A stretch of DNA of 64,000 nucleotides from Luteitalea sp. (lineage in GTDB: Bacteria > Acidobacteriota > Vicinamibacteria > Vicinamibacterales > Vicinamibacteraceae). Made by a program: the position numbers and the translations under genes. Every line of letters starts with the position of its first letter. Within the stretch, counting starts at the first letter, position 1. Below, one piece after another: positions 27,450 through 34,622 of the stretch. Where the stretch lies: NCBI GenBank assembly GCA_009377605.1, contig WHTT01000027.1:1-64000 (forward strand). The letters run 5' to 3'. A model generated the notes under the pieces. The model saw nothing but the letters and a program-made list of their open reading frames with translations, did not search any database and was not told the origin of the DNA.

Positions 27450-29027
27450 TCAGGACGTCAGCGAGCGATCTTCTTGGCCGCTCCGCGTTCGTTTCATCGC
27501 CCACGCAATTGCTGGCGTCAGCCACAAGACGAGCGCGGTGACTCCTAGCAAAGCGGCGACCGGCCGGGAAAAGAATGCGAGAAAGCTTCCGTCGGCCGCC
27601 GTCAGCGCCTGGATGAAGCGCTCCTCCAGTGGGCTTCCCAGGATGATTCCGAGGACCACCGGACCCGCGGAGATGTCCCGGCGATCCAGCAAGAACCCGA
27701 CGAAGCCCATGATGCCCATCACGAGCACGTCGAAGTAGCTTCCGTTGATGGCGTAGGCGCCGGTGATACAGAAGAGAAGAATAATCGGAAGCAAGACCCG
27801 CTTGGGCGTTCGCCGGATCAAGCCGCCAGCCCTGATGGCCGCTGTGCCAGCGACGATCAAGACCAGGTTCGCCAAGATGAACAGCAAGTAGATGCTGTAA
27901 ACGATGTCGGCCTGCGCCGTGAAGATATCAGGGCCCGGCGTCACATCCTTCATCAGGAGCACGCCGATGACGATCGCGGTTACGGAGTCTCCCGGAATGG
28001 CAAATACGAGCGCCGGCACCCATGCCCCTGCTAGCGCCGCGTTCTTCGCAGCGGCGCCGTCGCTAACACCCTCCATCGAGCCTCGCCCATATTCGTTCGG
28101 CTTGCTCGAAAAGCGCTTCGAGGCGGCCACCGATACCCAGGAGCCAATGTCGGCCCCGGCGCCAGGCAGCATGCCGATAACAGCACCAATCGTGCTGGAC
28201 CGCAGGGCGTGCAACTTGCGCGTCCAGAGCGACGCCGACGCCTCCCGCATCGCGCTGATCCCCAGGAGATCGGTGGGGCGTGCGAACCAGCGCCTGCGCT
28301 CCGCCGGCTCTCGCAACTCGGATGCATCCGCCGTTTGTTCACCCAACCGTGGCGCGAACATGTTGCGCAGGATCTCCGAGACCCCGAACAGCCCAATCAT
28401 TGCGGGGATGAAATTGATGCCCTGATAGAGCTCCGGACGCCCGAGCGTCAGGCGAGCTTCGGCGTGCACGGCGCTCAGTCCCACGAGGCTGAGCAGCAGC
28501 CCAATGATGAGGGCGAACAGGCCGCGCAGCATGGATCCTCGCGAGACAATGACCGCGCAGCTCAGACCCAGCAGATACAGCCAGAAATACTCGGCCACGC
28601 TGAAGGTGCGAGCCGCAAGCTGCGCCAGTGACGGCGCAAACAAGATGAGGATGACCGCCCCGAACAGACCGCCTGCCACGCTGGAGATCAGACAGACAGC
28701 AAGCACCCGATCGCCCTTGCCAAGCAGCGTGAGCCTGTAGGCATCCTCGGTGTACGCGGCGCTTGCTGGAGTGCCAGGAATCCTCAGCAGCGCGTTCGGG
28801 ATGTCGCCGGCAAAGATCGCGCAGGCGGTGAGCGTCACCAAAGCCGCAAGCGCCGGCACCGGATCCATGAAGTAGACGACCGGAATGAGCAGCGCCACTG
28901 CCATGGTCGCAGTCAGGCCTGGAACGGCGCCCATGAAGACCCCATAGATGGCCGCCGCAATGACGACGAACCACACATAGGGGCTGAAGAACACCTGTTG
29001 GACGGCCTGGATGAATGCTCCTTCCAT
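27450..29027 (-). CDS. tctA: Tripartite tricarboxylate transporter large permease
   Basis: This 525-residue protein with about 12 membrane segments matches TctA. The family signature PGLTATMAVALLIPVVYFMD lies near residue 35, AIFAGDIPNALLRIPGTPAS at about 78, and the internal repeat IGAVIGMLPGAGADIGSWVS at about 275. TctA is the large transmembrane subunit of tripartite transporters that import carboxylates using a periplasmic binding protein. It starts 6 bp after the fused TctC-TctB gene and is clearly in its operon. The exact substrate (citrate, another carboxylate or an aromatic acid) cannot be told. Confidence 0.92.
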   Translation of the reverse strand: MEGAFIQAVQQVFFSPYVWFVVIAAAIYGVFMGAVPGLTATMAVALLIPVVYFMDPVPALAALVTLTACAIFAGDIPNALLRIPGTPASAAYTEDAYRLTLLGKGDRVLAVCLISSVAGGLFGAVILILFAPSLAQLAARTFSVAEYFWLYLLGLSCAVIVSRGSMLRGLFALIIGLLLSLVGLSAVHAEARLTLGRPELYQGINFIPAMIGLFGVSEILRNMFAPRLGEQTADASELREPAERRRWFARPTDLLGISAMREASASLWTRKLHALRSSTIGAVIGMLPGAGADIGSWVSVAASKRFSSKPNEYGRGSMEGVSDGAAAKNAALAGAWVPALVFAIPGDSVTAIVIGVLLMKDVTPGPDIFTAQADIVYSIYLLFILANLVLIVAGTAAIRAGGLIRRTPKRVLLPIILLFCITGAYAINGSYFDVLVMGIMGFVGFLLDRRDISAGPVVLGIILGSPLEERFIQALTAADGSFLAFFSRPVAALLGVTALVLWLTPAIAWAMKRTRSGQEDRSLTS

Positions 29028-29033
29028 TTGTGA

Positions 29034-30422
29034 TCACCAGCCGAAGATGCCCTGCGGCAGCGGCACACGAAGATAAACGGCAAATACTTGATAGACCAAG
29101 GCGACCAGAATCAGACTTACCAGCAGCGCAACCGGCCATCGGACACCGAGACGCCACATCAAGAACGCCATGATGGCAAACCCCGTCACTAAGAAGCCCA
29201 ACGCCTCCGCGACGAGAAGATAGAGAAGAATTCCCCCCAGGACTTCCGCGACCCGCCAAGCGCCGCGCCACGAGAAGCTGTCCGAAGACTCGGTCCTGCT
29301 CATCCCTCCAGTGGTCACGAGCATCACCAGCGAGATGAAGCCGAGGCCAAGGAGAATCGCAGGAAACACCATGGGGCCGATCGTGCCCTCGCCCATGTTC
29401 TTGAACGCGTCGCCCGTCAGCAACGTGCCAAAGGACCGATCCATCCGCGCCAAGCTGCGGCTGAACTCCGCGGGGCCTTCGAATGCCCAATTGAAGCCAG
29501 CTCGCGCCATGAACCGACGAAACTCGTCGCCCTTCACCACCCGCTCCAACGCCGCCGCCAACACGCGACTGACTTCGTCCGGCGTCTCGGCCGGCATCCC
29601 GATGCCACGCCAACCTTCGAGGACGAGCTCGACACCCTGCTCCTTCAACGTGGGGATGTTGGGAAATTCGGCGAGCCGCTCGTCGGCCATCACGCCGAGG
29701 GCACGGATCTCGCCCGCGTCGAGCAGGGATCTGGCCTCCGGGAGGCTGCAGCTCACGATGTCGAGGCCTCCCGCCATCAATTCCTGGAGAGATGGCGACG
29801 CCCCTTCCATGGATATCCATCGAACAGCGTCTGATCGAGCGCCAATCTCGGTCAGCCAGCCGGCCAGCGCGACATGCCAGATGCCTCCCATCGCAGTGCC
29901 CGACGCGCGAAGCTGCCGCGGATGCGCTCGAACATGCGCGTTGAGCTCTTTGAGCGTCTGCCACGGAGCATCCTTGCGAACGAAGAGCGCTGCCGGATCG
30001 CGGTTCATCAAGGCCGCGGGGCGGTAATCGGCGTAGCTGATCGGCGTCAGGCCGCGCCAGTGAAGCATGCTGAGCTCCACCGTCATCAACGTGATCGTGT
30101 AGCCGTCTGGACGCGCCAGCGCCCCTCGTGTATGCCCGGTCACGCCGGCTGCGCCCGTGGCATTGACCACGTTCACCGGGACACCCAGCTCTCCTTCGAG
30201 CCCAACCGCCAACTGCCGCGCCACCCTGTCGGTGCCACCTCCCGCCGTCCACGGGCAGATCAAGATCACCGGACGACTCGGGTATTCTTCTCTCCGGTCG
30301 GCACAGCCAGGCGTCAGCCCGCCGAGCACAATCACGCACGCCACTACGAGGCCTCTGGAGATCCAGGCGGGACCACCATGTCGGCGCCAGCGCACTGCGG
30401 CGCACGAGGATTTGATCAGCAT
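29034..30422 (-). CDS. Fused TctC binding protein and TctB small permease
   Basis: This 462-residue fusion begins with an export signal (SRGLVVACVIVLGGL). The Bug/TctC periplasmic binding domain is residues ~50-325: RPVILICPWTAGGGTDRVAR at its start, VNATGAAGVTGHTRGA and a central VRWISMEGASPSLQELMAGG. A TctB-like domain with four helices follows from about 330 (AILLGLGFISLVMLVTTGGM, GGILLYLLVAEALGFLVTG). TctC and TctB are normally separate proteins, so fusion tethers the receptor to the membrane permease. ATG 30422 shares two bases with the start of the divergent RidA gene; GTG 30395 is an alternative. The frame also continues upstream, antisense to that gene. Confidence 0.85.
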   Translation of the reverse strand: MLIKSSCAAVRWRRHGGPAWISRGLVVACVIVLGGLTPGCADRREEYPSRPVILICPWTAGGGTDRVARQLAVGLEGELGVPVNVVNATGAAGVTGHTRGALARPDGYTITLMTVELSMLHWRGLTPISYADYRPAALMNRDPAALFVRKDAPWQTLKELNAHVRAHPRQLRASGTAMGGIWHVALAGWLTEIGARSDAVRWISMEGASPSLQELMAGGLDIVSCSLPEARSLLDAGEIRALGVMADERLAEFPNIPTLKEQGVELVLEGWRGIGMPAETPDEVSRVLAAALERVVKGDEFRRFMARAGFNWAFEGPAEFSRSLARMDRSFGTLLTGDAFKNMGEGTIGPMVFPAILLGLGFISLVMLVTTGGMSRTESSDSFSWRGAWRVAEVLGGILLYLLVAEALGFLVTGFAIMAFLMWRLGVRWPVALLVSLILVALVYQVFAVYLRVPLPQGIFGW

Positions 30423-31662
30423 GAAGATTCCAATCATGAGACTGCTATTGATTGCGGTGCTCCCTTCATCAGTGCTGCATTTCGGGTGTGCCGCCGAAGA
30501 CCCGCCCATCGAGCAGCCGGCCGAGCAGCCCGCCGTCAGCCGCCGGGTCGTCCGGCCGGATCATTTCCCCGCGGATCGGCCGTACTCGTTCGGCGTTCTC
30601 ACCGGCGACACACTTTACCTCGCTGGTCAAGTCGGCCAGGACCCGGTGACCGGACAGCAAGCGAACGGAATTGGCGACCAGACCCGCCAGGCAATGGAAA
30701 ACGTGGGGCACGTCCTGAAGGCGGCCGGAATGGACTTCACAAACCTGGTCAAGTGCCACGTCTACCTGAACGACATGGACGACTATACCGGGATGAACGC
30801 AGTCTACGGCAAGTTCTTCTCAGAGCGAGTGCCAGCACGAACCACCGTCGAGGCAGATGGATTGCCTGCAGATGCGAGCATCGAGATCAGTTGTGTCGCC
30901 TACCGTGATTCTTCGCGGATCTCGGTAGTCTCTGTGCCGAAGGGCTCACTTCCCGCGCCACTGGGACCTTACTCCCCCGCAGTCTGGGCCGGAGACACGC
31001 TCTACTTGTCCGGAATGGGCGGACAATTTCCCGAAGACCGGCGGCTACCGGAAGCCTTGACCGAGCAGACAACCCAGACCCTCGTCAATATCGGAACCAC
31101 TTTGGAGACCGCGGGGCTCGGTTTCTCGCACCTGGTCGACAGCAACGTCTACGTCACGACGCCAGACGAGGTGGGAACGCTGGCCGGCGCCTATGCGCCA
31201 TCGTTTGCCTCGATGCCGGCGCCACCGCGAGGTTTGGTGTTGCTGCCACGGCTGCCTGGTGAGATCAAGACGGAGATCACCGTCGTGGCGGCTCGGCGGA
31301 CAGACGAGCGTCAGATCATTGCAGCCGCCGATGACGCCGACGACCCGACGCGCGGCATGCGCGTGCGAGGCACACTCTACACGCGCACGGAGTCTGCACC
31401 CGAGGCCGGCCCGGACTTCGAACAGCAGTTTCGAGGCGTTCTGCGAAAGCTGGAAAGCACGCTCACCAACGCCAGCCTGCGATGGCGCGACGTCGCACAT
31501 GTTGAGGTGTATCTGGCCGACATCGCGGACATGGACGGTATGAACCGTGTCTTTCGCGAGACGTTCCCGGAGCAACCTCCAGCGCGCACGACCCTCCAGA
31601 CGACCCCGCGCTCCGGCGAGCGCGTCCAGGCGGCGTTGGTGGCAACGCGGGCCCAAATGTAG
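30421..31662 (+). CDS. Exported protein with three tandem RidA domains
   Basis: This 413-residue protein has a signal-like N-terminus (IMRLLLIAVLPSSVLHFGCA, possibly lipidated at the Cys). Three YjgF/RidA-like domains follow. Domain 1 is about 45-165 (LTGDTLYLAGQVGQDPVTGQ and MNAVYGKFFSERVPARTTVE). Domain 2 is about 175-300 (GPYSPAVWAGDTLYLSGMGG). Domain 3 is about 305-410 (LESTLTNASLRWRDVAHVEV and FPEQPPARTTLQT). RidA enzymes deaminate reactive enamines/imines using an Arg in the PART motif; domains 1 and 3 retain PART, while domain 2 has PPRG. RidA proteins are usually single-domain, trimeric and cytosolic. A single-chain pseudo-trimer exported from the cell would be unusual. ATG 30421 is used; ATG 30436 is an alternative. 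Confidence 0.85.
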   Translation: MKIPIMRLLLIAVLPSSVLHFGCAAEDPPIEQPAEQPAVSRRVVRPDHFPADRPYSFGVLTGDTLYLAGQVGQDPVTGQQANGIGDQTRQAMENVGHVLKAAGMDFTNLVKCHVYLNDMDDYTGMNAVYGKFFSERVPARTTVEADGLPADASIEISCVAYRDSSRISVVSVPKGSLPAPLGPYSPAVWAGDTLYLSGMGGQFPEDRRLPEALTEQTTQTLVNIGTTLETAGLGFSHLVDSNVYVTTPDEVGTLAGAYAPSFASMPAPPRGLVLLPRLPGEIKTEITVVAARRTDERQIIAAADDADDPTRGMRVRGTLYTRTESAPEAGPDFEQQFRGVLRKLESTLTNASLRWRDVAHVEVYLADIADMDGMNRVFRETFPEQPPARTTLQTTPRSGERVQAALVATRAQM

Positions 31663-32248: not shown

Positions 32249-32256
32249 TTCACGTG

Positions 32257-32640
32257 ATGGCGCTCACGCCGCAATCGACAGCCAGGTCTAAACCCGAGCC
32301 GGCCGCCGTGCTCGCGAAGGCCGTGCTCTCCGCCGCGGCACGGCTTGGCCTGCGCAACCGCCCTCTCGCGATGATCCTCGGCACCAGCGAAGCCTCCGTT
32401 TCCAGGCTGCAACGCGGTCGGGGCATCGATCCCACCAGCAAGGAGGGAGAGGTCGCGCTGTTGTTCCTGCGGATGTACCGTAGCCTCGATGCGATCATGG
32501 GCGGCGACGACGCTCAAGCACGCGCGTGGCTGCACGCGGCGAACTCTCACGTCGGCGGGGTGCCTGCAACGCGCATCCGCCACATCGAGGGGCTGATGCA
32601 TGTCCTCCAGTATCTGGACGCGATGCGAGGGCGCCTCTAG
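32257..32640 (+). CDS. Xre/MbcA/ParS-type antitoxin
   Basis: The 127-residue protein combines an Xre-like helix-turn-helix (AVLSAAARLGLRNRPLAMIL, then GTSEASVSRLQRG) with the C-terminal ParS/MbcA toxin-binding domain (LLFLRMYRSLDAIMGGDDAQ, then AWLHAANSHVGGVPATRIRH). It is the partner of RES-domain toxins, forming a large complex that also represses the operon. A GTG at 32254 is 3 bp upstream; ATG 32257 is preferred. The toxin gene starts inside its last 41 bases, so the two are translationally coupled. Confidence 0.88.
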   Translation: MALTPQSTARSKPEPAAVLAKAVLSAAARLGLRNRPLAMILGTSEASVSRLQRGRGIDPTSKEGEVALLFLRMYRSLDAIMGGDDAQARAWLHAANSHVGGVPATRIRHIEGLMHVLQYLDAMRGRL

Positions 32641-33355
32641 GTTCCGCCTGCTCCGACTCGTTGCGTGGCGCGTCGTCGAAGCGCAGCACCAGGTCTCGAC
32701 GCGCAAGCTCGTCGACACACTCGATGAGCAGGCGCTCCTCGAAGAGCTGATCGAAGCTGCCAAGCCGCCGAACCTGACCGACGGCCACCTCCACTATCTG
32801 CTGTCCACGCCGTTCCGTTATCCGCCGCTTGCTCACGGCTCTCGCTTCGCCAGCCGATACGAACGGGGAATCTGGTACGGATCGGAAGGGCGGCGGGCAG
32901 CATTCGCTGAAGTGGCGTACTACCGACTCGTTTTTCTCGACGGCACGCAGGCGGATCTCGGTGTCGTTACGACTGAGCTCACGGCCTTCACCGTGCGTGT
33001 GAGCTCGGAGCGAGGGATCGATCTTGTGGCGCCCCCCTTCGATGCGCACCGCACCCCTATCGCTTCGCCCAGCGCCTACGGCGAGACGCAAGCGCTGGGC
33101 CAGGCGATGCGCACGGCCCACGTCGAGCTATTCCGCTACCCGTCAGCGCGCGACGCAGAGGGCGGTGTCAATGTGGGCATCTTCTCACCCGCCGCGTTCA
33201 GCGCGACAAAGCCGCGCAGCATGGAAACATGGCGCTGCACCGCGACACGCGAATGGGTCGAGATCGTGAAGCGCGATTACTTCGAACAGTCCGCGTTCAG
33301 CTTCGTGCGTGAGACGTTCCTGGTGGACGGCCTGCTGCCGGCGCCTGCGCCGTGA
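32600..33355 (+). CDS. RES-domain NAD-degrading toxin
   Basis: This 251-residue protein has the RES fold. The namesake residues are visible: Arg in the SRFASRYERG segment (81-90), Glu104 in AAFAEVAYYR and Ser196 in VGIFSPAAF. In the characterised RES-Xre toxin-antitoxin systems (such as MbcT/MbcA) the toxin phosphorolyses or hydrolyses NAD+, arresting growth. It overlaps its antitoxin gene by 41 bp, and GAGGGG lies 7 nt before ATG 32600. The N-terminal 20 residues are poorly conserved, so the true start could be slightly downstream, nearer WRVVEAQHQVSTRKLVD. Confidence 0.88.
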   Translation: MSSSIWTRCEGASRFRLLRLVAWRVVEAQHQVSTRKLVDTLDEQALLEELIEAAKPPNLTDGHLHYLLSTPFRYPPLAHGSRFASRYERGIWYGSEGRRAAFAEVAYYRLVFLDGTQADLGVVTTELTAFTVRVSSERGIDLVAPPFDAHRTPIASPSAYGETQALGQAMRTAHVELFRYPSARDAEGGVNVGIFSPAAFSATKPRSMETWRCTATREWVEIVKRDYFEQSAFSFVRETFLVDGLLPAPAP

Positions 33356-33570: not shown

Positions 33571-34446
33571 TCAGCTCGTCGCTTCGCCCAACAGCGCTGC
33601 GTGCACACCCCGCTCGTACGCGAGTGATTCCTTCATGCCAGCGAGCGGATCGTCGGCGTTGATCTCGTACTCCAGCGCCAGGTGTCCCTCGAAGTTGGCC
33701 TTGAGCAGCGCGCGGAACAGGCCGGGAATATCGAGTGCTCCTTTACCGACCTCCACCTGGCTGTCTTTGTCGCTCTTGTCCGCGAGATCCTTGATGTGCA
33801 GATCGAGCAGGCGAGGGCCGGCCAGGGTGACAGACTCCACGATGTCCGCCCCAGCGCGCACGGAATGGCCGATGTCCATGCAGATGCCCATGCGCGCATC
33901 GCGGCCCTTCAGCGCGGCCAGCGCGTCTGCAGGCGCCGGATACCACTCGTCTTCCGGGCCGTGATTGTGAATCGCAATCTTGATGTCGTACTCCTTCACC
34001 AGCTTCTCGACGATGTCGAGCGTCTCCGGCGCGGGTGAGCAGACGATCGTCGGAAAGCCGCCAGCCTTGGCATAGTCGAAATCCTTGCGGATCTCCGCCT
34101 CGTCGTTGGCCTTCCAGGTGATCACGCCGCCCCCCATGATGGTCAGACCGGCCGCTTCGATCTTCTTGCCGTTGGCGCGAATCACCTCGGGTGGGTCGGT
34201 GCGCGGCAGATGCATATCCTTGAGCGTGATGTACTTAACGTCCATGTCCTGGCACATCTCCAGCGCGGCATCCAGCGGGAACTCTCGAAGCGAGTAGGAG
34301 GCCACGCCGATCTTGAGCCCTTTCGACTCCGCGGGCCGAGGCGGCGCAGATGAGCCGAACGCGATCCGGCCGACGAGCGCGGGACCGGTGAGCGCGATGC
34401 CGGTGGTCGCGAGGAATTGCCGGCGAGAGGACGGAGACAACGACAT
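33571..34446 (-). CDS. Tat-exported sugar-phosphate isomerase/epimerase-like protein
   Basis: This 291-residue protein starts with a twin-arginine signal (SSRRQFLATTGIALTGPALV). A xylose-isomerase-like TIM barrel follows: LKIGVASYSLREFPLDAALE, DVKYITLKDMHLP, IKIAIHNHGPEDEWYP, GICMDIGHSVRAGADIVESV and LLDLHIKDLADK, ending with LALEYEINADDP. The His and acidic residues in HNHG, DIGH, LHIKD and EYE are the metal-binding positions of the family. Such Tat-exported members are frequent in Acidobacteria and Planctomycetes, and their sugar substrates are mostly unknown. ATG 34446 begins the Tat signal, and the last codons abut octamer array 2. Confidence 0.88.
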   Translation of the reverse strand: MSLSPSSRRQFLATTGIALTGPALVGRIAFGSSAPPRPAESKGLKIGVASYSLREFPLDAALEMCQDMDVKYITLKDMHLPRTDPPEVIRANGKKIEAAGLTIMGGGVITWKANDEAEIRKDFDYAKAGGFPTIVCSPAPETLDIVEKLVKEYDIKIAIHNHGPEDEWYPAPADALAALKGRDARMGICMDIGHSVRAGADIVESVTLAGPRLLDLHIKDLADKSDKDSQVEVGKGALDIPGLFRALLKANFEGHLALEYEINADDPLAGMKESLAYERGVHAALLGEATS

Positions 34447-34622
34447 GACGACTCCTTTGGCTTGTGTCAGGGACATTGGTCATTCTACGCCTACTGGCGC
34501 GTGAAGGGCAGATCCCAGACGCGGTCTTGCACGACGCTGAGCGCTGTCGGGCGTCCCGCAGCATCGCGTCTGAAAATCACCCATCACCTTTCCTCTCGCA
34601 CTCGCCATTCTTGCGGGCGCCT
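34447..34622. other. Gap with no recognised gene
   Basis: This lies upstream of the sugar isomerase gene, which is transcribed leftward, and should hold its promoter. I see no convincing -35/-10 pair or conserved ORF. It is followed by two dispersed repeats (34625-34709 and 34720-34783) and a PQQ-propeller remnant before the next gene's 3' end. Confidence 0.4.

Follow-up and report, generated by a model that had tools for sequence, protein, structure and literature searches.

A 64,000-nucleotide stretch of Luteitalea sp. DNA (contig WHTT01000027.1, positions 1 to 64,000; hereafter the window) encodes a protein of 413 amino acids in which three RidA domains follow an export-type N-terminus. 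We propose, with moderate confidence, that this 3x-RidA is an exported pseudo-trimer with composite active sites which would work outside the cytoplasm, deaminating the imines or enamines that arise from an exported PLP ammonia-lyase of the DgaE family. The proposal builds on features seen in the sequences, namely the three domains, the signal-like N-termini, the residue pattern, the gene linkage in relatives and the presence of both partner orthologs in the genome. Location, catalysis, substrate and step order of the pathway are what we infer from them, and the order deacylase, lyase, RidA, aldolase is taken from the protein families.

The gene (30421..31662, + strand) is a stop-free frame, for which the start at 30421 is favoured over an upstream GTG because the 66% identical relative L066 begins at the equivalent of M1 to M6. 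Three separate parts of the product match PF01042 (213 bits, E 1.1e-63, cut-off 27.3), and TIGR00004 of NCBIfam assigns it to the RidA subfamily (206.5 bits against a cut-off of 106.25). With three Pfam stretches and three modelled folds in tandem on one chain it qualifies as a 3x-RidA. The three RidA domains behind an export-type N-terminus, described in the original prediction, are thereby confirmed as an observation. Nine PF01042 matches occur in the host genome, three of them being the domains of this gene itself. Domain 1 comprises residues 39–163 (30535..30909, +), as delimited by Pfam, a residue-column table and the AlphaFold model; domain 2 (residues 166–292; 30916..31296, +) and domain 3 (residues 296–411; 31306..31653, +) were delimited by Pfam and the residue columns of orthologs.

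The three domains differ in what they retain of the active site. Domain 1 keeps Y55, K111, N126, R140, T142 and E155. The PART motifs announced for domains 1 and 3 are found at R140 and R389, and the PPRG of domain 2 leaves an arginine, R270, in the aligned position. In domain 2, Y184 and E285 are invariant in six orthologs and the active-site asparagine is lost, while domain 3 keeps R389 and the asparagine, lacks the equivalents of Tyr17 and Glu120 and has an eroded N-terminal half. Across ten orthologs, R140 and R389 (the equivalents of catalytic Arg105) and E285 are each present in all ten; the position of R270 holds arginine in seven and valine, threonine or glutamine in three, and E155 is replaced by glutamine in three. 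Neither a duplicate row of the window protein nor L142, which is truncated, entered the residue counts.

Export of the protein is predicted from its N-terminus (MKIPIMRLLLIAVLPSSVLHFGCAAED), which a simple hydrophobicity rule identifies as a Sec-type signal. Residues 1–23 (30421..30489, +) are hydrophobic, contain two basic residues and end in Cys23; in the AlphaFold model, pLDDT is below 50 for nearly every residue up to 39. The lipobox consensus is [LVI][ASTVI][GAS]C, from which the LHFGC of the window protein departs by a histidine at −3. L066 and L067, its two nearest relatives, likewise have a cysteine at the end of the hydrophobic run, so the protein may be a lipoprotein whose lipobox departs from the consensus. 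Our home-made signal rule asks for a charge-free stretch of ten residues before the domain whose mean hydropathy is 2.0 or higher; it was passed by 12 of the 14 members of the window's clade (the window protein included), by 28 of 33 other 3x-RidAs and by 5 of 20 single-domain controls; L070 and L142 were omitted from these counts and from the tree. Both clade members that miss the rule, L043 and L067, have N-termini that are hydrophobic by eye. As most of the phylum's 3x-RidAs pass the rule, export appears to be a general habit of these proteins rather than a peculiarity of the window gene.

The signal-like N-termini of most homologs thus support export of the window protein. The contrary reading, a cytosolic protein whose hydrophobic N-terminus does not function as a signal, strikes us as very improbable: it could draw on the missing consensus lipobox and on a signal predicted by a simple rule alone, but it sits badly with hydrophobic N-termini that recur in the clade with differing sequences, and with the 15 of 20 single-domain controls that show none by the same rule. 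Homologs without any signal peptide, which the original prediction had named as evidence against itself, exist only as a distant minority (L129–L131). These three 3x-RidAs of the same phylum, two of them from the window's family, have no N-terminal extension and are probably cytosolic, as judged from sequence.

The single-domain RidAs that adjoin a DgaE gene carry a twin-arginine N-terminus in 13 of 13 cases (by eye). The Tat route was considered for all exported RidAs and rejected, because most 3x-RidAs and six exported single-domain RidAs with no DgaE nearby (the five controls and L062) lack the twin arginine. Single-domain RidAs with signal-like N-termini were also observed in L073 (a Glassbacteria MAG) and L075 (an unclassified bacterium).

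Structure prediction for a pseudo-trimer, one of the checks originally suggested, gave an AlphaFold model (eight sequences) with a mean pLDDT of 84.8 and a pTM of 0.84. In Foldseek searches this model matched single RidA chains and, over 356–370 columns, single-chain chorismatases. Chorismatases themselves have the architecture of a RidA trimer. Alignment of the model with chorismatase 4bps by VIA-align yielded a Z score of 26.2 and 2.8 Å over 275 residues (model residues 62–409), so that the predicted match extends over the whole chain. Chorismatases 4bps, 5ag3 and 5a3k all match the entire model in a single chain (Z ~26); they share 13–14% identity with the window protein and catalyze another reaction, and we do not class the window protein as a chorismatase. 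No solved 3x-RidA is among the fold-search matches listed, which is not evidence that none exists.

Residue losses in the family point in the same direction. In AtRidA, a glutamate near the substrate carbonyl is contributed by the neighbouring subunit, and R165 holds the carboxylate (PMC4960622, as far as its available text goes). In a closed ring of three domains, joint loss is therefore expected for the arginine of domain n and the glutamate of domain n+1. In 48 sequences, which provide 144 domain pairs, joint loss of these two residues had a phi of 0.45 (both present in 112 pairs, arginine only in 19, glutamate only in 3, neither in 10); the Fisher p-value of 4.9e-6 is an overstatement because the rows share ancestry. 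The other pairings gave a phi of −0.10 (same domain) and −0.04 (domain n−1), and arginine and asparagine within one domain gave 0.63, as expected for an asparagine of the same subunit. The domain pair that is affected differs between lineages: it is 2 and 3 in orthologs of the window protein, 1 and 2 in L072, and 3 and 1 in all five members of the L118 group. The pattern of the L118 group requires domain 3 to adjoin domain 1, as in a ring. The L121 group and L147 fit poorly, having lost the glutamate and kept the arginine.

Taken together, the model and the residue co-loss support a pseudo-trimer of the three RidA domains. Composite sites would combine arginine and asparagine from domain n with glutamate from domain n+1. 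Judged by its residues, the window protein should have two complete sites, R140/E285 and R389/E155, and a degenerate third one in which R270 is paired with Q403. The claim that a trimer is made from one chain stands on the model, the chorismatase match and the co-loss; its novelty does not, as covalent trimers had been proposed by Niehaus et al. in 2015. One might instead see a triple chain that is drifting, as domains 2 and 3 might indicate: a RidA-like protein outside the cell that serves for binding or as a structural component and has at most slight deaminase activity. One degenerate composite site, the eroded N-terminal half of domain 3 and the glutamine in place of E155 in three of ten orthologs would suit that reading; we nevertheless consider it improbable since the conservation of R140, R389 and E285 in every one of the ten orthologs fits selection on the sites.

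The same three-domain order, for which a search had been suggested, is common in the phylum: it was found in 38 of the 40 candidate loci fetched, and L134 and L139, which are single-domain, were left out of the 3x-RidA set. Six of seven genomes of this family, counting that of the window, carry an ortholog; the sole other genome of the window's genus has no ortholog of the 3x-RidA gene. A scan of named genomes returned 36 loci, among which L066–L071 are 51–66% and L072 is 30% identical to the window protein (two of L066–L071 are the same records as G006 and G004); these seven loci all come from Acidobacteria MAGs. The window's clade comprises 14 rows with a support of 99/98. Several loci end at contig ends.

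DgaE catalyzes a PLP-dependent elimination that converts D-glucosaminate-6-phosphate to a keto acid and ammonia. A DgaE-family PLP ammonia-lyase is encoded within 5 kb of the 3x-RidA gene in 11 of the 14 members of the window's clade, but near none of the 33 other 3x-RidAs and none of the 20 single-domain controls, the search model having been seeded partly from linked loci and applied unchanged to the controls. The controls form a homogeneous set, since 14 of the 20 have an identical neighbouring gene and thus represent mostly a single conserved locus. In the window's clade the linked DgaE is usually accompanied by an exported amidohydrolase. In five genomes of the family, the 3x-RidA gene has a gene for an exported NF006689 amidohydrolase on one side and one for a PLP protein of the DgaE family on the other; all five also have a Tat-signalled single-domain RidA nearby, and an exported RraA-like aldolase and a large TonB-receptor-like protein were each found in four. 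Twin-arginine N-termini are present in 19 of 19 DgaEs of a first set (by eye) and in 21 of 28 of a second set. As a separate observation, L072 (1513–13268) holds four twin-arginine DgaE-type genes, a single RidA and a 3x-RidA within 12 kb, in addition to an amidohydrolase and one more gene of aminotransferase-like type.

The window's own 3x-RidA gene has no partner gene close by. Likewise, L066 has no DgaE nearby, and L135 has the amidohydrolase only. Both partners are encoded elsewhere in the genome. The DgaE of contig C109 is 64–70% identical to six 3x-RidA-linked DgaEs and 39–56% identical to the remaining twelve compared, some of which are also linked. The amidohydrolase of contig C60 is 72–76% identical to six linked ones and scores 444.7 bits on NF006689 (cut-off 371). 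For the DgaE, the match to the solved structure of D-glucosaminate-6-phosphate ammonia lyase (7lc0/7lce) has an E value of 3.4e-42; the 194 bits on TIGR01437 (cut-off 385.3) make the protein a relative and not a member of that family. Because DgaEs of this kind fall short of the curated cut-off, they may catalyze a different reaction. On contig C53 (L058, 6309–9764, − strand), genes for a second DgaE-type lyase, an amidohydrolase and a single-domain RidA lie side by side on one strand, all three signal-bearing and with both junctions overlapping.

Across the phylum, a DgaE at E 1e-40 or better was detected in 15 of 149 genomes. Of the 28 DgaEs encoded in 24 additional regions, eight have a RidA gene and seven an amidohydrolase gene at a distance of up to 5 kb; a RidA lies within that distance of 8 of 21 twin-arginine DgaEs versus 0 of 7 others, numbers too few for significance. 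Around the 3x-RidAs of the other clade, the neighbours within 6 kb are mixed, with no consistent partner. As most exported 3x-RidAs of the phylum have no DgaE nearby, a DgaE partner cannot be deduced from the fact that a triple RidA is exported. This pattern leaves some room, though not much, for an exported general imine scavenger that has no dedicated partner and for which the DgaE linkage is one use among several. The 28 signal-like members of the other 33 3x-RidAs, the unlinked window gene and L066, and the exported single-domain RidAs of five controls (which also occur apart from DgaE) agree with such a scavenger. We rate it unlikely because the DgaE linkage marks the window's clade and because the window genome retains the orthologous DgaE and amidohydrolase.

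The immediate neighbours of the gene were also inspected. A TctC-TctB fusion of a tripartite tricarboxylate transporter (29034..30509, − strand; PF03401 and PF07331) is divergent from the RidA gene; a potential ATG start at 30422 would overlap that of the RidA gene on the opposite strand, and a TctA gene (27450–29027, −) adjoins it. This linkage to the RidA gene was not seen in relatives, and we claim no part for it in the proposed system. Downstream, a small regulator-like gene is followed by a gene for a RES-domain protein (32254–33355, +), an arrangement resembling an Xre/RES toxin–antitoxin pair, and a TIM-barrel sugar isomerase-like protein (PF01261) with a twin-arginine N-terminus is encoded at 33571–34476 (−). 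A function deduced from the neighbours TctA, TctC-TctB, PhzF, DoxX and Xre/RES was rejected, as none of them was found beside orthologs.

In the pathway that we favour, an exported amidohydrolase would release an amino acid or aminosugar acid, from which a Tat-exported DgaE-family lyase would then eliminate to give an enamine and, from it, an imine. Outside the cytoplasm, both the lyase and its PLP would face this product; by hydrolyzing the enamine or imine to a keto acid and ammonia, the 3x-RidA would also protect the exported lyase from the reactive compound that it generates. More tentatively, and with rather less confidence, we suggest that Acidobacteriota may have an entirely extracytoplasmic pathway around a PLP ammonia-lyase, in which the deacylase, the RidA and an RraA-type aldolase are all exported, the lyase leaves by the Tat route already loaded with its cofactor, and a TonB receptor takes part, with two solutions to the RidA trimer problem, a Tat-signalled single-domain RidA or a Sec-exported covalent triple RidA as in the window.

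Several known systems share parts of this arrangement. Niehaus et al. named the 3x-RidAs in 2015 and presumed them to be covalently linked trimer units, e.g. EF_0115 of Enterococcus faecalis; the window protein likewise has three RidA domains per chain, and the words 'periplasm' and 'signal' do not occur in the available portion of that text (PMC4433059). The window protein differs in its predicted export and in the tie of its relatives to an exported DgaE-type lyase. With the homotrimeric imine deaminases RidA, UK114 and TdcF the window protein shares the fold of its domains (Z ~21 for one domain) and the active-site residues of domain 1; unlike them it is a single chain with an export signal and unequal sites. 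The ong cluster of marine bacteria, as described in the accessible text, resembles the present trio in combining a deacetylase (OngB), a PLP deaminase (OngC) and a RidA (OngD, single-domain, 127 amino acids), but OngB and OngC are predicted to be cytoplasmic, whereas export signals are found here on all three kinds of protein (PMC9537276). That an extracytoplasmic enamine-handling enzyme would be new, as the original prediction supposed, was too strong a claim: the available part of one report describes an LAAO–RidA complex in the Chlamydomonas periplasm, lao-cccA-ridA in Gluconacetobacter and a Tat-signalled LAAO with ridA in the same operon (PMC5053998). As in our proposal, a RidA and an imine-producing enzyme are located outside the cytoplasm in these systems; the enzyme, however, is a flavin oxidase and no PLP lyase, and in that text their RidA is not described as a triple chain (PMC5053998). 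A triple RidA combined with an exported DgaE-type lyase was not found described in the literature searched, whose coverage is thin for subscription journals. The triple chain, its reading as a trimer and extracytoplasmic RidA are thus already known; new is the link to an exported DgaE-type lyase.

RidA is known for protecting PLP enzymes in the cytosol or in organelles. If our proposal is true, chemistry that is usually intracellular seems to run outside the cell, and enamine damage control would be needed wherever such a PLP enzyme works, outside the cell too. Covalent triple chains with one dead site would allow clean tests of composite active sites, site by site. For the soil bacteria concerned, the proposal would imply an undescribed periplasmic route for the degradation of N-acylated amino acids or aminosugar acids.
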